Shown: one piece after another, positions 4,628-36,370 of the stretch
Numbering within the stretch: position 1 is the stretch's first letter
Layout: every line of letters begins with the position of its first letter
Source: Acidobacteriaceae bacterium
Lineage (GTDB): Bacteria; Acidobacteriota; Terriglobia; Terriglobales; Acidobacteriaceae
Length of the DNA stretch: 43,768 nucleotides
Direction: 5' to 3'
NCBI GenBank assembly: GCA_003138975.1
Contig: PLHQ01000136.1
Span: forward strand, 1 to 43,768
Notes under the pieces: generated by a model
The model's input: the letters and a program-made list of their open reading frames with translations, nothing else
What the model was told of the DNA's origin: nothing
Database searches by the model: none
Position numbers and translations under genes: made by a program

Positions 4628-4641
4628 AGTTCTCAGTTCTC
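4628..4641 (-). repeat. Tandem heptamer (GAGAACT x2) at the valS/nadC junction
   Basis: Two exact minus-strand copies of GAGAACT fill the gap between the valS stop (4640-4642) and the nadC ATG (4621), overlapping the stop. The purine-rich unit may double as a weak Shine-Dalgarno sequence. A related unit abuts the start at 30501. Confidence 0.6.
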
Positions 4642-7447
4642 AGGTTCCGCCGTTGGTTTGGGTGCCGCTCAGTTCATCCAACTGACGCTTTATCTTGTCG
4701 CGCACACTAACGAGTTGCTGCTCGCGCCTACGCAGTCCTTCCACGACATTTGCCGGAGCTTTCGCCAGAAACTGTTCGTTGCTCAGTTGCCGCTGATTGT
4801 TCGCGAACTCCTTCTCGATCTTATCCCGTTCTTTGTTCAGACGTTCACGTTCGGCTGCAACGTCAATTTTTCTCTCGTAGATTATGTGAACATCGAAACG
4901 CGCGGTGCTGCGGGCGCCGGCTTGTTTGGCTAGCGAGCTGTCCACGAATGTGATCTTTTGCACATTCGCGAGGCGTTCGACCGCACCGCGATTCTGTTCG
5001 ATCATCGCGCGAACCGCAGGCTCATGGGCAAAGATTTCTATCGGGACTTTCACCTTGGGTTCGACCTTCAGTTCGGCGCGCACGTTTCGGACGTTAACGA
5101 TCAAATCCTGCAGGATTGCCATCTCTGTCTCGGCGGCCAGATTGAACTGGATTTCGTCGGCCTGCGGATATGCTGCGAGTGCAATCGACTTGAGCGGAGG
5201 TTGTCCATCATAAATAGCTTGCCAGATTTCTTCGGTGATAAAGGGCATCACGGGATGCAACAAGCGCAACGACGCGTCGAACATCTTGACTAGATTTGCG
5301 CAGGCGACGCGGGCTTGTGTTTTGTCCGCGCCGTCCTCAAAGTTCAGCCGAGGTTTGATGAGCTCGATGTACCAGTCGCAGAATTCTCCCCAGAAAAAAT
5401 CGTAGATGCGGTTCGCGGCTTCGTGGAAGCGATAGGTTTGGAGGGCGTCGTTCACTTCCGCAGTGACGCGATTGAAACGGGAGAGAATCCAGCGGTCTTC
5501 GAGGGTTGTCGGCTGACAACCGGCAACTCCCCCTCCTGGATGAGAGCTGGCGGGACTTTGTCCCGGCTGGACAGCCGAGGGCGGCTGTCCCCACACAAAC
5601 CCAATGCGGTCCACATTCATGAACATAAATCTGGCGGCGTTCCAGATCTTGTTGGCAAAAGCGCGGTAACCGTCGGTGCGGCTCTCGCTGAAGGCAATGT
5701 CGGTGCCCGGTGCGGCCATGGCCGCGAGAGTGAAACGAGTCGCATCCGTGCCGAAGCGTTCAATGATATCCAGCGGATCGAGCACGTTGCCTTTGGTCTT
5801 CGACATCTTCTGGCGCTCCGCATCGCGCACGAGAGCGTGAATATAAACCTCACGGAAGGGCACGGTGTCATTCCTTTTTTCCGCCCAGCCGCTGGCGCGC
5901 TTGATCGCCGGACCCTGCTCGTGTCCCTGCATGAAGTGGCAGCCGAACATGATCATGCGGGCGACCCAGAAGAAAAGAATTTCGTACGCCGTGATGAGCA
6001 ACGTGGTGGGATAAAACACTGCCTGATCGCGTGTCTTCTGCGGCCAGCCTAGCGTCGTGAACGGCAACAGGCCGGAGGAGAACCAAGTGTCGAGCACGTC
6101 GGTGTCCTGCTCGAGCTTTGAGCCGCCGCACTTCGGACAGTGCTGCGGAGTTTCACGAGCCACGATGATCTCGCCGCAAGCGCATCGCCAGGCTGGAATG
6201 CGATGTCCCCACCACAACTGGCGCGAAATGCACCAGTCGTGGATGTTGTTCATCCAGTTCAAATAAATCTGTTTGTAATTCTCGGGAACAATTGTGATCT
6301 CGCCGGTCTCGACGGCTTCGATTGCCTTCTGCGCCAGCGGCTGGATCTTGATGAACCATTGCTCGGAGAGGCGAGGCTCGACGACGGTGCCGCAGCGGTC
6401 GCATTTGCCGAGGGAGAGAGCGTAGTCTTTTTCGGCTACGAGAAATCCCTGCTCCTGCAAGTCTGCCAGTATGCGCTTGCGGGCTTCGTAGCGATCGAGA
6501 CCCGCATAGCCTCCAGCGTTCTTGTTCATGTGCGCGTGCTCATCCATCACGTCGATCTGCGGGAGGTTATGGCGCTTGCCGGCCTCGAAGTCGTTGGGAT
6601 CGTGTGCGGGGGTCACCTTCACCGCGCCGGTTCCGAACTCGGGCTGCGCCAGTTCATCGGTGATGATGGGGATCTCGCGATTCATCAGCGGAAGCAGCAC
6701 ATGCTTGCCGTGGAGATGTGTGTAGCGCTCGTCTTTGGCATTCACGGCGATCGCGGTATCACCCAGCATGGTCTCCGGGCGCGTGGTGGCTACGGTGATG
6801 AATTCACTCGTACCGATGACTGGATAGCGAATCTCCCAGAGTTTTCCGGCAACGTCTTCGTGCTTCACTTCGAGATCGGAGATGGCGGTCTCGCAGCGCG
6901 GGCACCAGTTGACAATGTACTTGCCGCGATAGATCAGCCCTTCTTCATACAGGCGGACGAAGACCTCGCGAACGGCGCGGGAAAGATTTTCGTCCATGGT
7001 GAAGTATTCGCGGTCCCAATCGACGGAGGCGCCGAGGCGCTTCATCTGGTCGAGGATTGCGCCGCCGTAGTGGCGCTTCCATTCCCATACGCGCTCGATG
7101 AATTTTTCGCGGCCCAGGTCGCGACGCTTCTTGCCTTCTTTGGCGAGGTCACGCTCCACCATCATTTGTGTGGCGATGCCGGCATGATCAGTCCCGGGCA
7201 GCCACAGCGTGATGAAGCCGCGCATGCGATGCCAGCGGACGATGATGTCCATCTGCGTTTGGTTGAGCATGTGGCCCATGTGCAGGCGGCCGGTGACATT
7301 CGGCGGCGGCAACAGGAGGGTGAAGACAGGGCGCGTCTCGCCCTCGGGCGGCGTGGGGACGGAGAAAAGTTTCTCCTTGATCCAGTACTCGGCCCAGCGC
7401 GTTTCAATCGCGCCCGGCTCGTAGGCTTTGGGCAATTCGTGCGGCAT
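4640..7447 (-). CDS. valS: Valyl-tRNA synthetase, with an in-frame repeat-derived insertion
   Basis: Charges tRNA-Val with valine and edits threonine. The class I signature PPPNVTGRLHMGH ends at residue 59, the CP1 editing domain follows, KMSK is at about 547-550, and the C-terminal coiled-coil arm spans about 865-935. Zinc-knuckle-like CxxC pairs lie in the middle (CDRCG and CACG...CPKC). The 935-residue length is normal for the bacterial enzyme plus an insert. Residues ~616-647 are a Pro/Gly/Ser/Gln-rich stretch (VWGQPPSAVQPGQSP...) between the catalytic core and the anticodon-binding domain that begins LEDRWILSRF. It is encoded by a hairpin repeat found elsewhere in the window. Its leader also carries a copy of that repeat. 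Likely cotranscribed with nadC. Confidence 0.97.
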   Translation of the reverse strand: MPHELPKAYEPGAIETRWAEYWIKEKLFSVPTPPEGETRPVFTLLLPPPNVTGRLHMGHMLNQTQMDIIVRWHRMRGFITLWLPGTDHAGIATQMMVERDLAKEGKKRRDLGREKFIERVWEWKRHYGGAILDQMKRLGASVDWDREYFTMDENLSRAVREVFVRLYEEGLIYRGKYIVNWCPRCETAISDLEVKHEDVAGKLWEIRYPVIGTSEFITVATTRPETMLGDTAIAVNAKDERYTHLHGKHVLLPLMNREIPIITDELAQPEFGTGAVKVTPAHDPNDFEAGKRHNLPQIDVMDEHAHMNKNAGGYAGLDRYEARKRILADLQEQGFLVAEKDYALSLGKCDRCGTVVEPRLSEQWFIKIQPLAQKAIEAVETGEITIVPENYKQIYLNWMNNIHDWCISRQLWWGHRIPAWRCACGEIIVARETPQHCPKCGGSKLEQDTDVLDTWFSSGLLPFTTLGWPQKTRDQAVFYPTTLLITAYEILFFWVARMIMFGCHFMQGHEQGPAIKRASGWAEKRNDTVPFREVYIHALVRDAERQKMSKTKGNVLDPLDIIERFGTDATRFTLAAMAAPGTDIAFSESRTDGYRAFANKIWNAARFMFMNVDRIGFVWGQPPSAVQPGQSPASSHPGGGVAGCQPTTLEDRWILSRFNRVTAEVNDALQTYRFHEAANRIYDFFWGEFCDWYIELIKPRLNFEDGADKTQARVACANLVKMFDASLRLLHPVMPFITEEIWQAIYDGQPPLKSIALAAYPQADEIQFNLAAETEMAILQDLIVNVRNVRAELKVEPKVKVPIEIFAHEPAVRAMIEQNRGAVERLANVQKITFVDSSLAKQAGARSTARFDVHIIYERKIDVAAERERLNKERDKIEKEFANNQRQLSNEQFLAKAPANVVEGLRRREQQLVSVRDKIKRQLDELSGTQTNGGT
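5502..5601 (-). repeat. Hairpin repeat copy A, in frame within valS
   Basis: About 100 bp holding three hairpins: GGACAGCCG/CGGCTGTCC (5569-5577 with 5582-5590), CGGGAC/GTCCCG (5551-5556 with 5560-5565) and GTTGTC/GACAAC (5505-5510 with 5515-5520). The minus-strand start TGTGGGGACAGCCGCCC is also found in copies at 7467 and 29800. It keeps the valS frame open and adds about 32 residues. Confidence 0.75.
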
Positions 7448-7466
7448 CAGTGTGTGTTGTAGCTCG

Positions 7467-7510
7467 TGTGGGGACAGCCGCCCCCGGCTGTCCGCCGGGC
7501 AAAGCCCGGC
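7467..7510 (+). repeat. Hairpin repeat copy B, in the valS leader
   Basis: Starts TGTGGGGACAGCCGCCC like copies A and C. Two adjacent hairpins: GGACAGCCG/CGGCTGTCC (7472-7480 with 7485-7493) and GCCGGGC/GCCCGGC with an AAA loop (7494-7500 with 7504-7510). It lies between the predicted valS promoter and the valS ATG at 7447, so the valS mRNA leader would carry both hairpins. Confidence 0.75.
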
Positions 7511-29697: not shown

Positions 29698-29741
29698 GGA
29701 TTGAAGCGAGTTTAATACAGCATCGACGTAGACGGGGTTCA

Positions 29742-29800
29742 CGGGCAGGAGTGCCCGCGCCACACAAATCGTTGGACAGCCAAGGGCGGCTGTCCCCACA
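29742..29800 (-). repeat. Hairpin repeat copy C, between the racemase and ACT genes
   Basis: The minus strand begins TGTGGGGACAGCCGCCC, the same as copies A and B. Hairpin 1 is GGACAGCC/GGCTGTCC (29774-29781 with 29788-29795); hairpin 2 is CGGGCA/TGCCCG (29742-29747 with 29752-29757). It gives an upstream extension in frame with the ACT gene that I do not count as coding. Confidence 0.7.
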
Positions 29801-29808
29801 TGGAACGT

Positions 29809-33673: not shown

Positions 33674-36370
33674 TCAAGCGCGCTCGAGCTGGGCATACTT
33701 CTCTACCAGCTTCTTCAAGCCGAAGCGAGGAAATTGTACAGTAATCTTGGCTTGTTCGCCTTCTCCTTCTCGCTGGTAGACCGTTCCTTCGCCGTATTTT
33801 GGATGACGGACCTTCTGGCCGGGGCGGAATCCGCGCTTGCCAGTGGGCTCTTCGACGGGAATTTTCCCGACAGTAAACTTCTTGCCGCGGCTGGCGAAAA
33901 ACTCGGCGATGTTCTCGATGGAGTTGTAGGGCTTGGCCGGGACGGTTGGCTTTTGGCGGCTTGCCGGAACGCCACTGCGCTTCCAGGTTGCGCTCTGGTC
34001 TTCGTCTTCGTAGGAATAGTGCGTATCTCCGGCATCGTAGGCTGCGGGGCTGAGCCCCGCTGGACCCCTCGACTGCGCTCGGGGCAGGCTCCCGAGGGCG
34101 GCCGTCCCCAGATGGCCTGTGCTTACGTTCGAAGTGCTGCGGCGCTTGCCTAGCTCTTCGACCAACTGGATTGGGACTTCTTCCAGAAACCTTGACGGGA
34201 CACTCGCTTCGGGCAGATCGGTGCCATATCGGCGACGGTAGACGGCGCGGGTCAGGATGAGCTGGTCCATGGCACGTGTCATGCCGACATAGCAGAGACG
34301 GCGCTCTTCTTCGACGTCGTCGGGTTGGAGCATGGTGCGCGAGTGCGGGAACAGGCCCTCTTCGAGGCCGCTGAGAAAGACCAGCGGAAATTCCAGGCCC
34401 TTGGCCGCGTGCAGGCTCATGAGAGTGATCTGGGAACGCTCGTCATAGTCGTCGGCATCGCTGATGAGGGCGGCATGGTCGAGGAACTGATCGAGGGTTT
34501 CGCCGCGATCGCGCGAATCCATGGCGGCGTTGACCAATTCGCGCAGGTTTTCGATGCGGGAGAAGGATTCGGGCGTCTCTTCGGCTTCGAGAAGTTTAAT
34601 GTAGCCGGTGCGGTCGATGAGGAACTTAAGCAGGTCGGCGGTGGAGGCGGTCGTAGCGCCAGCATCTCGCCGGCCTGGGAGCGGGCGGGATGCCCGGTCT
34701 TCTTCCTGCACGACAGCCGGCGGGACGCCGAGGCTGCTGTCGGCCGCATCCCCGGTATAGGCTCCGCCGAAATCGAACGCGGTGTTGTCCAATTCGTTAG
34801 GGTCGAAGGCGGCCGCGTCGTCCTCGGCTGCTGGCTCGGTTTCGGCTTCTGCCGGCGCAAGCGGTTCGCCAGGGTCCACACTGTTTTCCAGCTTTTCGGC
34901 AAATGTTCCGGACAAGATCGCTTGGGCCTCCACGATCAACTGCTGAAAGTTTTTCACCGCGGCGAGTGCGCGCTGCGGCAAGAGTTGACGGCGAATCGCT
35001 TCTCCGAGTGCACCCCAGAGCGACAGACCGGTTTCCAGAGCGAGGCGCTCGATGGTGTCGATGGTACTTTTGCCAATGCCGCGAGTGGGTGTATTGATCA
35101 CGCGCAGGAGCGAGATGGAGTCATCCGGATTCTGGATGACCTTGAGGTACGAGATCATGTCCTTGATCTCGGAGCGCTCGTAGAAAGAAAATCCTCCGAC
35201 CACTTTGTATTTCAGGCCATAGCGGCGCATGGCCTCTTCAAACAGACGCGACTGGGAGTTGGTGCGGTAGAGGACGGCGGCGCGCGGAGTTTCCCCGCGT
35301 TCAGCGGCCTCCCGCAGATATTTTGCAACGTGGTCGGCGGCGAAGAGTGCTTCGTTTTCGCCGTCGGGGGCTTCGTAGTAGCCAATCTTTGTACCGCCCT
35401 GGCGCGCGGTCCAGAGATTCTTCCCTTTGCGGCGGAGGTTGTTCGCGACCACAGATGACGCCGCCTGCAGAATGTTTTGCGTGGAGCGGTAGTTCTGTTC
35501 TAGGCGAATGATCTTCGCCTCGGGAAAATCCTTTTCGAATTCGAGAATGTTTCGAATGTCGGCGCCGCGCCAGGAATAAATCGACTGATCTTCATCGCCC
35601 ACGGCACAGACGTTGTGCTGCTCGCCCGCCAGCATGCGCATGAGTTCGTATTGCGGACGGTTGGTGTCCTGGTATTCGTCGATCAGCAGATATTGAAAGC
35701 GGCGGTTGTAATACTCGCGCACATGCGCGGCGGATTTCAGGAGGCGCGTCGCCTCGAGTAGCAGGTCATCGAAGTCGAGGGCATTGGCTTTGCGCAGCTC
35801 CTTGCGGTATTGCTCAAACAGATGTGCGATCTTCTCATTCTTTGGATCGGCTGATTGCAGGTAGAGTTCCCGCGGATCGAGCATGTGATTCTTCGCCCAC
35901 GAGATCCGCGACAGCACAGTGCGAGGCGTGAGCTGCTTGTCGTCAACCCCAAGGCGCTTCATGATTCCTTTGACCACCGATTGCTGGTCGCTTTCGTCGT
36001 AGATGACAAATTTCTTGGTGTGACCAATCGGCGGTTGGCCGGGCGTGGCCGAGGGAATCTGCAAAGCTTCAATGTCGCGTCGAAGAACTCGCACGCAGAA
36101 TGAGTGGAACGTCGAGATGAGCGGCTTGGCAATGCTCAGTCCGCCAACCAGCTTTTCGACGCGTTCGCCCATTTCGGCTGCGGCCTTGTTGGTGAAGGTC
36201 ATCGCCAGAATGGATTCCGGCATCACTCCCATGTGCTCGATCAGGTAGGCGATGCGGTAGGTGATGACGCGCGTCTTGCCGCTGCCCGCGCCGGCGAGGA
36301 TCAGCACGGGACCCTCGGTGGTTTCGACGGCTTCGCGCTGCTGCGGGTTGAGTTGGTCGAGAAAAGACAA
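33674..36370 (-). CDS. pcrA: UvrD/PcrA-type ATP-dependent DNA helicase with repeat-derived insertions
   Basis: A 3'-to-5' superfamily 1 helicase for repair and replication-fork maintenance. The Q motif lies at residues 6-11, Walker A AGAGSGKT at 26-33, DEYQDTN at 231-237 and LEQNYRST around 292-299. The C-terminal DALIxR-like region is followed by a Tudor/SH3-like end (GQKVRHPKYGEGTV), as in PcrA. The 898 residues exceed the usual ~720-740. Two extra segments explain part of this: residues ~542-574, within a longer Ala/Glu-rich stretch before LLKFLIDRTGY, and ~749-780 in the C-terminal linker. Both are encoded by hairpin repeat-type DNA. Confidence 0.95.
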   Translation of the reverse strand: MSFLDQLNPQQREAVETTEGPVLILAGAGSGKTRVITYRIAYLIEHMGVMPESILAMTFTNKAAAEMGERVEKLVGGLSIAKPLISTFHSFCVRVLRRDIEALQIPSATPGQPPIGHTKKFVIYDESDQQSVVKGIMKRLGVDDKQLTPRTVLSRISWAKNHMLDPRELYLQSADPKNEKIAHLFEQYRKELRKANALDFDDLLLEATRLLKSAAHVREYYNRRFQYLLIDEYQDTNRPQYELMRMLAGEQHNVCAVGDEDQSIYSWRGADIRNILEFEKDFPEAKIIRLEQNYRSTQNILQAASSVVANNLRRKGKNLWTARQGGTKIGYYEAPDGENEALFAADHVAKYLREAAERGETPRAAVLYRTNSQSRLFEEAMRRYGLKYKVVGGFSFYERSEIKDMISYLKVIQNPDDSISLLRVINTPTRGIGKSTIDTIERLALETGLSLWGALGEAIRRQLLPQRALAAVKNFQQLIVEAQAILSGTFAEKLENSVDPGEPLAPAEAETEPAAEDDAAAFDPNELDNTAFDFGGAYTGDAADSSLGVPPAVVQEEDRASRPLPGRRDAGATTASTADLLKFLIDRTGYIKLLEAEETPESFSRIENLRELVNAAMDSRDRGETLDQFLDHAALISDADDYDERSQITLMSLHAAKGLEFPLVFLSGLEEGLFPHSRTMLQPDDVEEERRLCYVGMTRAMDQLILTRAVYRRRYGTDLPEASVPSRFLEEVPIQLVEELGKRRSTSNVSTGHLGTAALGSLPRAQSRGPAGLSPAAYDAGDTHYSYEDEDQSATWKRSGVPASRQKPTVPAKPYNSIENIAEFFASRGKKFTVGKIPVEEPTGKRGFRPGQKVRHPKYGEGTVYQREGEGEQAKITVQFPRFGLKKLVEKYAQLERA
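34044..34115 (-). repeat. Hairpin repeat copy D, in frame within pcrA (C-terminal linker)
   Basis: The minus strand opens GGGGACGGCCGCCCTCGG, a diverged form of the A/B/C core. Then come CCCCTCGA/CTCGGGG-type and GCGGGGC/GCCCCGC (34044-34050 with 34054-34060) hairpins. It encodes GTAALGSLPRAQSRGPAGL in pcrA; the same GTAALG peptide is the reading of copy C. Confidence 0.65.
34658..34730 (-). repeat. Three-hairpin element in frame within pcrA
   Basis: Hairpins GCCAGC/GCCGGC-type (34658-34663 with 34669-34674, one G-T), CGGGC/GCCCG (34682-34686 with 34692-34696) and CGGCG/CGCCG (34718-34722 with 34726-34730), with similar purine loops (GAGAT, GGGAT, GGA). It encodes about 25 residues of a pcrA insertion (SLGVPPAVVQEEDRA...). 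Confidence 0.5.

Follow-up and report, generated by a model that had tools for sequence, protein, structure and literature searches.

What is a hairpin-forming repeat doing in frame inside the valine--tRNA ligase gene of an acidobacterium, and how did it come to be there? The window, by which we mean the whole 43,768-nucleotide stretch of DNA analysed here, comes from a 5.45-Mb draft genome (G000), and the nearest named organisms among the 80 relatives retained of 311 are Acidobacteriota metagenome bins, several of them Candidatus Sulfotelmatobacter. Our answer, to which we assign a probability of roughly three in four, is that valS carries one copy of a REP-type element, a dispersed repeat with a GTRG tag and two hairpins, which inserted in frame into a flexible ValS linker at a site that has been recurrently reoccupied. 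More broadly, the flexible linkers encoded by core genes appear to be rewritten continually by DNA that looks selfish.

The element within valS

The valS gene (4640 to 7447, minus strand) is an intact host gene whose translation of 935 amino acids runs without an internal stop. The protein scores above the cut-offs of NCBIfam PRK05729.1 and TIGR00422 and carries the Pfam domains tRNA-synt_1 (residues 18-586), Anticodon_1 (651-804), and Val_tRNA-synt_C. The initial annotation had described a repeat lying in frame between the catalytic core and the anticodon domain, and both statements stand, with the gene unbroken and the repeat falling between tRNA-synt_1 and Anticodon_1. This region is a hypervariable inter-domain linker (residues 614-648; 5504 to 5608, minus strand), bounded by the conserved blocks WNAARFMFMNVD on its N-terminal side and LEDRWI on its C-terminal side, that varies in length and sequence between species and is for the most part missing from the Thermus enzyme (PDB 1gax). 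An AlphaFold model of ValS, weak overall (mean pLDDT 61, pTM 0.45) and used for the local helix-coil-helix pattern only, predicts a low-confidence coil between helices at 588-615 and 649-670, with pLDDT below 50 at residues 621-638.

The element itself is smaller than first proposed. Instead of three hairpins spread over about 100 bp, repeat matches delimit a REP-like element of about 47 bp with two hairpins (5550 to 5596, minus strand), which encodes ValS residues 618-633 (VWGQPPSAVQPGQSPA). On the same strand, it begins with the head GTGTGG (5591 to 5596), and the tag GTGG, defined by tag counts across copies, stands directly 5' of hairpin 1. Hairpin 1 (5569 to 5590), GGACAGCCG-CCCT-CGGCTGTCC, recurs as exact copies across the genome and the genus, and hairpin 2 (5551 to 5565), CGGGAC-AAA-GTCCCG, is recognised from the second stem of other copies and from compensatory pairs. 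The supposed third hairpin (5504 to 5521, minus strand) belongs to the host linker, outside the element. It is not repeated, as BLAST matches to the valS-element query in its own genome are confined to positions 13-68 of 109, and it encodes AGCQPTT, which aligns with the GVAGFQPAT/GVAGFQTAT-type linker of relatives bearing other elements. Residues have indeed been added to ValS, although the element supplies about 16 of them rather than the 32 or so first attributed to it, and the remaining linker residues differ among species. Folding of the whole 123-base stretch was set aside as proof of an element, being only moderately better than that of shuffled sequences (z -2.35; 2 of 200 shuffles at least as stable), and no Rfam family exceeds its gathering score in the window.

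The hairpin core occurs three times in the window (5569-5592, 7470-7493, and 29774-29797) and in none of 100 shuffles, in agreement with the intergenic copies that had been noticed near 7467 and 29800. The second copy (7466 to 7510, plus strand) lies upstream of valS, 18 bp from the start codon (7447), and is 89% identical to the element at 5550-5596; the leader of the valS mRNA may therefore include its hairpins. The third copy (29774 to 29801, minus strand), also between genes and identified by its hairpin-core match, has a second hairpin of a different stem type downstream (29741-29758).

A dispersed repeat family of the REP type

The expectation that a genome search with the repeat core would return further copies was borne out, with 34 BLAST matches to the valS-element query in its own genome. 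With up to three mismatches allowed, the hairpin-1 pattern is found there 29 times forward and 37 times in reverse, counts that overlap because the palindrome is often scored on both strands, and 0 times in the reversed control. With at most one mismatch, it is present in all 31 genus genomes searched, the source genome included, at between 1 match (G003) and 213 matches (G020) per genome with both strands summed, and the reversed control again gave 0.

The repeat is also directional. At 94 distinct sites picked by hairpin 1 alone, GTGG or GTAG stands immediately 5' of the hairpin on one side at 78, on both sides at 1, and on neither at 15. Among 61 head-oriented copies, the tag is GTGG in 44 and GTAG in 13, and the family therefore shares the tag of GTAG-type REPs in a relaxed form only. 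In the test set for hairpin 2, 61 copies selected by hairpin 1 and head only, a second stem of at least 5 bp was found within 30 downstream bases of 35 copies, compared with 4 of 61 in the upstream direction and the same number after shuffling. This stem covaries at three pairs across 61 sequences (C-G in 35 and U-A in 12; C-G in 28 and G-C in 14; A-U in 31 and G-C in 15). All six reading frames are open in 35 of 61 copies, compared with 10 of 61 shuffled copies and 5.6% of 1974 intergenic windows. A directional tag, dispersed copies, and a second covarying hairpin are hallmarks of REP-type repeats.

A scan of 1.77 Mb from five genomes for the head ([ACG]TGTGG or [ACG]TGTAGG) followed by a hairpin gave 82 sites, a number that includes chance matches (18 in reversed and 25 in shuffled controls), and these sites show a set of interchangeable stems. 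A stem-type filter, devised after the sites had been seen, retained 64, of which 48 are intergenic and 16, about a quarter, lie in genes called by a purpose-built codon-usage caller, which assigns 80-86% of the DNA as coding. The valS-element family (family A) is thus high-copy, dispersed, and mainly intergenic, like the GTAG-type REPs. Those repeats are characterised, in the accessible text of Di Nocera et al. 2013 (PMC3733652), as short dispersed palindromes with a 5' tetranucleotide tag that are mostly intergenic, single or dimeric, and in some cases intragenic. The family described here differs from them in its mainly GTGG tag, its second hairpin of variable stem, its many interchangeable stems, and the reoccupation of a linker across the genus.

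Interdomain linkers of valS and other genes

The valS linker is occupied again and again by different, often reversed hairpin elements in related species. From 110 valS loci, nearly all in metagenome-assembled genomes, 102 were used (L052, L059, L060, and L170 were set aside, and L145, L146, L169, and L171 were unparsed), yielding 85 distinct linkers. At least three BLAST matches in the 1.77 Mb of genus DNA, with valS masked, were obtained for 27 of the 85, compared with 12 of 1700 control windows of the same length taken from the same valS genes. A hairpin of one of eight pattern classes is present in 34 of the 85 linkers against 10 of 1700 control windows, and at zero mismatch in 14 against 4, with the BLAST comparison being the cleaner of the two tests because the linkers themselves had partly served as the source of some class patterns, C and D among them.

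The element-bearing linkers all fall within one clade (SH-aLRT 99), comprising 34 of its 61 distinct linkers and 0 of 24 outside it, and elements occur in both orientations within the clade; the other 27 of the 61 carry no recognised element of the eight classes. On the valS tree, element class requires at least 27 changes, compared with a mean of 33.1 and a minimum of 30 for 200 shuffles of the labels, and when only the 34 element-bearing rows are considered, the 19 class changes are close to random (shuffled mean 22.6, minimum 18). The same 32 residues in all close orthologs, encoded by unrelated, non-hairpin DNA, would have refuted the original observation, and alignment shows that close orthologs do not share the ValS residues at this site. 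The valS genes of G017 and G004 are identical at 2456 of 2643 bases outside the linker (92.9%) and at 54 of 93 inside, and they carry a reversed C-class and a forward E-class element, respectively. The G007 linker holds the same element family as the window's valS in the same frame. The linker of L103, 59 residues from WNAARF to EDRWI, is apparently a string of several distinct hairpin pieces. None of the relatives compared retains a clean empty site at the valS linker, so that insertion is there indistinguishable from in-place recombination or stem turnover.

Beyond what the initial annotation had described, other species have different hairpin elements at the valS site, and pcrA/uvrD in the same window is affected as well. 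This helicase gene (33674 to 36370, minus strand; Pfam UvrD-helicase, UvrD_C, and PcrA_UvrD_tudor) carries an element in the linker before its tudor domain, a composite in-frame element (34046 to 34118, minus strand; outer limits set by eye) in which hairpin 1, ATCTGGGGACGGCCG, is followed by hairpin 2 and is itself interrupted by a nested family B element at 34066-34089. In-frame presence in protein genes, the behaviour known from Rickettsia palindromic elements (RPE), extends to valS, pcrA, trmFO, panC, selA, and others. Fourteen of the 16 in-gene sites lie in named genes, namely valS (two genomes), pcrA/uvrD (two genomes, two sites each), trmFO, panC, selA, a Y-family polymerase gene, a molybdopterin oxidoreductase gene (two sites), and two with a site near a terminus, the N terminus of the PDH E1 alpha subunit and the C terminus of dusB; the remaining two sites fall in one unnamed protein.

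The PcrA/UvrD linkers and, by eye, the TrmFO linkers behave like the valS linker, and PanC of G012 carries an insertion absent from its relatives, although these cases are shown in less depth. PcrA linkers could be compared at site 2 in 22 of 26 loci and at site 1 in 9 of 26. A hairpin class is present at site 2 in 13 of 22 genomes and no recognised element in the other 9, figures that stand without control windows, and site 1 of G011 encodes WGQPPSAVQ, a peptide of the window's own ValS. The TrmFO linkers, compared by eye and without control windows in 21 of 26 loci, hold different hairpins in several species, and several short ones hold no recognised element. The TrmFO linker of G019 (L328) contains another palindrome, of the CCCCAYTTCKCGCGC type, and a close match to it is repeated several times next to a Y1 transposase gene at L286. 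In PanC of G012, 21 extra residues correspond to an element insertion, and the site is empty in all 24 other genomes that cover it, where the alignment splits into two adjoining pieces. One more genome gave a distant fragment only and three gave no match, and PanC linkers were displayed for 10 of 25 loci.

Spread, alternatives, and significance

By analogy with what has been proposed for REPs, the elements would move as hairpins of single-stranded DNA, on which a RAYT/TIRYT-like tyrosine transposase (HUH/Y1) would act in trans. Selection would retain only frame-preserving insertions in tolerant loops, and the frequent stop-free state in all six frames would make the elements easy to tolerate. 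An element already in residence could then offer a hairpin for nesting, as with family B, or for recombination between copies, and a linker once hit would in this way be rewritten repeatedly. In line with such nesting, 9 of 33 family B copies, the one in the valS linker of G024 among them, sit between complementary flanks of at least 7 bp, compared with 3.8% in the control, and at a stem of at least 5 bp there is a small excess (13 of 33 compared with 18.6%), although these counts may not be independent if composite copies of families A and B multiplied as units. Subject to the same caution about composites, the pattern suggests that a resident element helps to draw in further ones.

Candidate transposases are widespread, with Y1 genes in 29 of the 31 genomes. 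Resident Y1 transposases bearing family A at their ends were considered and not supported, as family A lies within 500 bp of the Y1 gene at 0 of the 31 loci examined, a smaller part of all Y1 matches. Classes F, D, and C are each found within 500 bp of one Y1 gene, on one side only (L271, L289, and L290), and the inverted repeats flanking the Y1 genes examined are mostly other palindromes. Flanking in inverted orientation of the TIRYT style is absent for family A at the 31 loci and is seen for family B at L279 only, where copies in opposite orientation stand on both sides of the Y1 gene, each seemingly nested within the transposase's outer repeat. Of the two Y1 genes found in the source genome, one (L061, 1-1978) is interrupted by an in-frame TAG and appears to have decayed. 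In the accessible text of PMC3733652, acidobacterial Y1 transposases are flanked by inverted repeats, some of which form dispersed families, and some acidobacterial TIRs share GGGGWSAS. The genomes studied here resemble the TIRYT/class 3 TnpA-Y1 systems, as far as the accessible portions of PMC3733652 and PMC6006769 describe them, in having acidobacterial Y1 genes with inverted repeats and in that GGGGACAG fits GGGGWSAS, and they differ in that family A is not the terminal repeat of the Y1 loci examined. In the DNA adjoining Y1 genes, GGGGWSAS itself was counted 6 times in 23,500 bp, compared with 9 times in 52,383 bp at a greater distance, and it stands on both sides at 0 of 31 loci.

Repeated landing is not the only way to arrive at such linkers. 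A single ancestral insertion, with the linker copies since exchanged by gene conversion with dispersed copies or altered by stepwise compensatory change, is a tenable account to which we give clearly less than an even chance. It would fit pcrA site 2, where head, position, and hairpin 2 are common to many genomes and hairpin 1 takes matched stems (among them ACGGCCG/CGGCCGT, ACGGGCG/CGCCCGT, and ACGGACA/TGTCCGT), as well as the GFVW-type valS linkers of G000, G003, L094, and L102, which have a PGQ[SG]P hairpin-2 peptide in common and differ in hairpin 1. However, it does not sit easily with the restriction of the PanC insertion to G012, with the flips of orientation between close species at valS, or with the AGVWSLEEF-like stretch that stands without an element in L138 and L148 outside the clade and in L152 and L159 inside it, and that in L132 and L110 (AGVW/AGIW type) is kept with an element added after it. 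That the hairpins are kept for a role in the mRNA or protein, such as translation pausing between domains or control of mRNA stability, seems improbable to us. Palindromes in coding DNA do survive with matched changes in their stems, although a dead insert would be expected to decay, and an element also lies just upstream of valS in the window. However, close relatives differ in the type and orientation of the element and in whether they have one, 27 of the 61 clade linkers carry no recognised element, and the same families are mostly intergenic (48 of 64).

An artefact of metagenome assembly, or linkers drifting by chance toward GC-rich palindromes, is very unlikely, even though nearly all of the genomes used are metagenome-assembled and a few valS matches are broken (L040 and L056 have a single stop codon each, and the frame changes near residues 61-71 in G015 and at 369/370 in G022). 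These breaks lie away from the linker, and the elements, at about 50 bp, are below ordinary read length. In all 102 parsed genes the linker connects the conserved blocks within a single frame, in part by construction because parsing requires both blocks in one frame, and the linkers match dispersed repeats far above the same-gene controls. By default we regard the valS element as a tolerated selfish insertion with no evident benefit to ValS. A bolder proposal, which we consider possible if doubtful, is that the clade harbours a self-renewing system, used or suffered, in which interchangeable REP-type hairpins colonise the inter-domain linkers of core enzymes and then act as landing pads for hairpins that nest in their loops. 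If so, the linker sequences of ValS, TrmFO, and PcrA would be written mainly by mobile DNA and less by point mutation.

Intragenic REPs as such are already known. They have been described in other bacteria, including in UvrD/REP helicase and tRNA synthetase genes, and at about the same recB site in two Xanthomonas species, in the accessible text of PMC3733652, which mentions RPE and cites Acidobacteria for transposases and TIRs rather than for intragenic repeats. The novelty here lies in the phylum, in the double hairpin with its relaxed GTGG tag, and chiefly in the fact that throughout a genus the same linkers have been rewritten again and again. No report of in-frame palindromic elements in Acidobacteriota was found in the literature searched, which covered few subscription papers.

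The likeness to RPE that had been proposed, in another phylum and another gene, is supported as a likeness of behaviour. RPE and their Wolbachia counterparts, like the valS element, are palindromic, lie in frame in protein genes, and add residues at tolerated sites; the present elements differ from RPE in phylum, in their many stem types, and in their one-sided tag, and the valS element is shorter than RPE-1. The best-known carriers of in-frame palindromic elements, Rickettsia and Wolbachia, live obligately inside cells, and weak selection is an easy explanation there. The Acidobacteriota hosts come in many cases from soil or peat, to judge by their record titles, have assemblies of 3.5-8.2 Mb, and offer recurrent core-gene sites in many comparable species. 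This clade would allow measurement of how often mobile DNA becomes protein sequence, and it would allow one to ask whether selection or copying maintains hairpins in coding DNA, and whether a transposase moves them and, if so, which.
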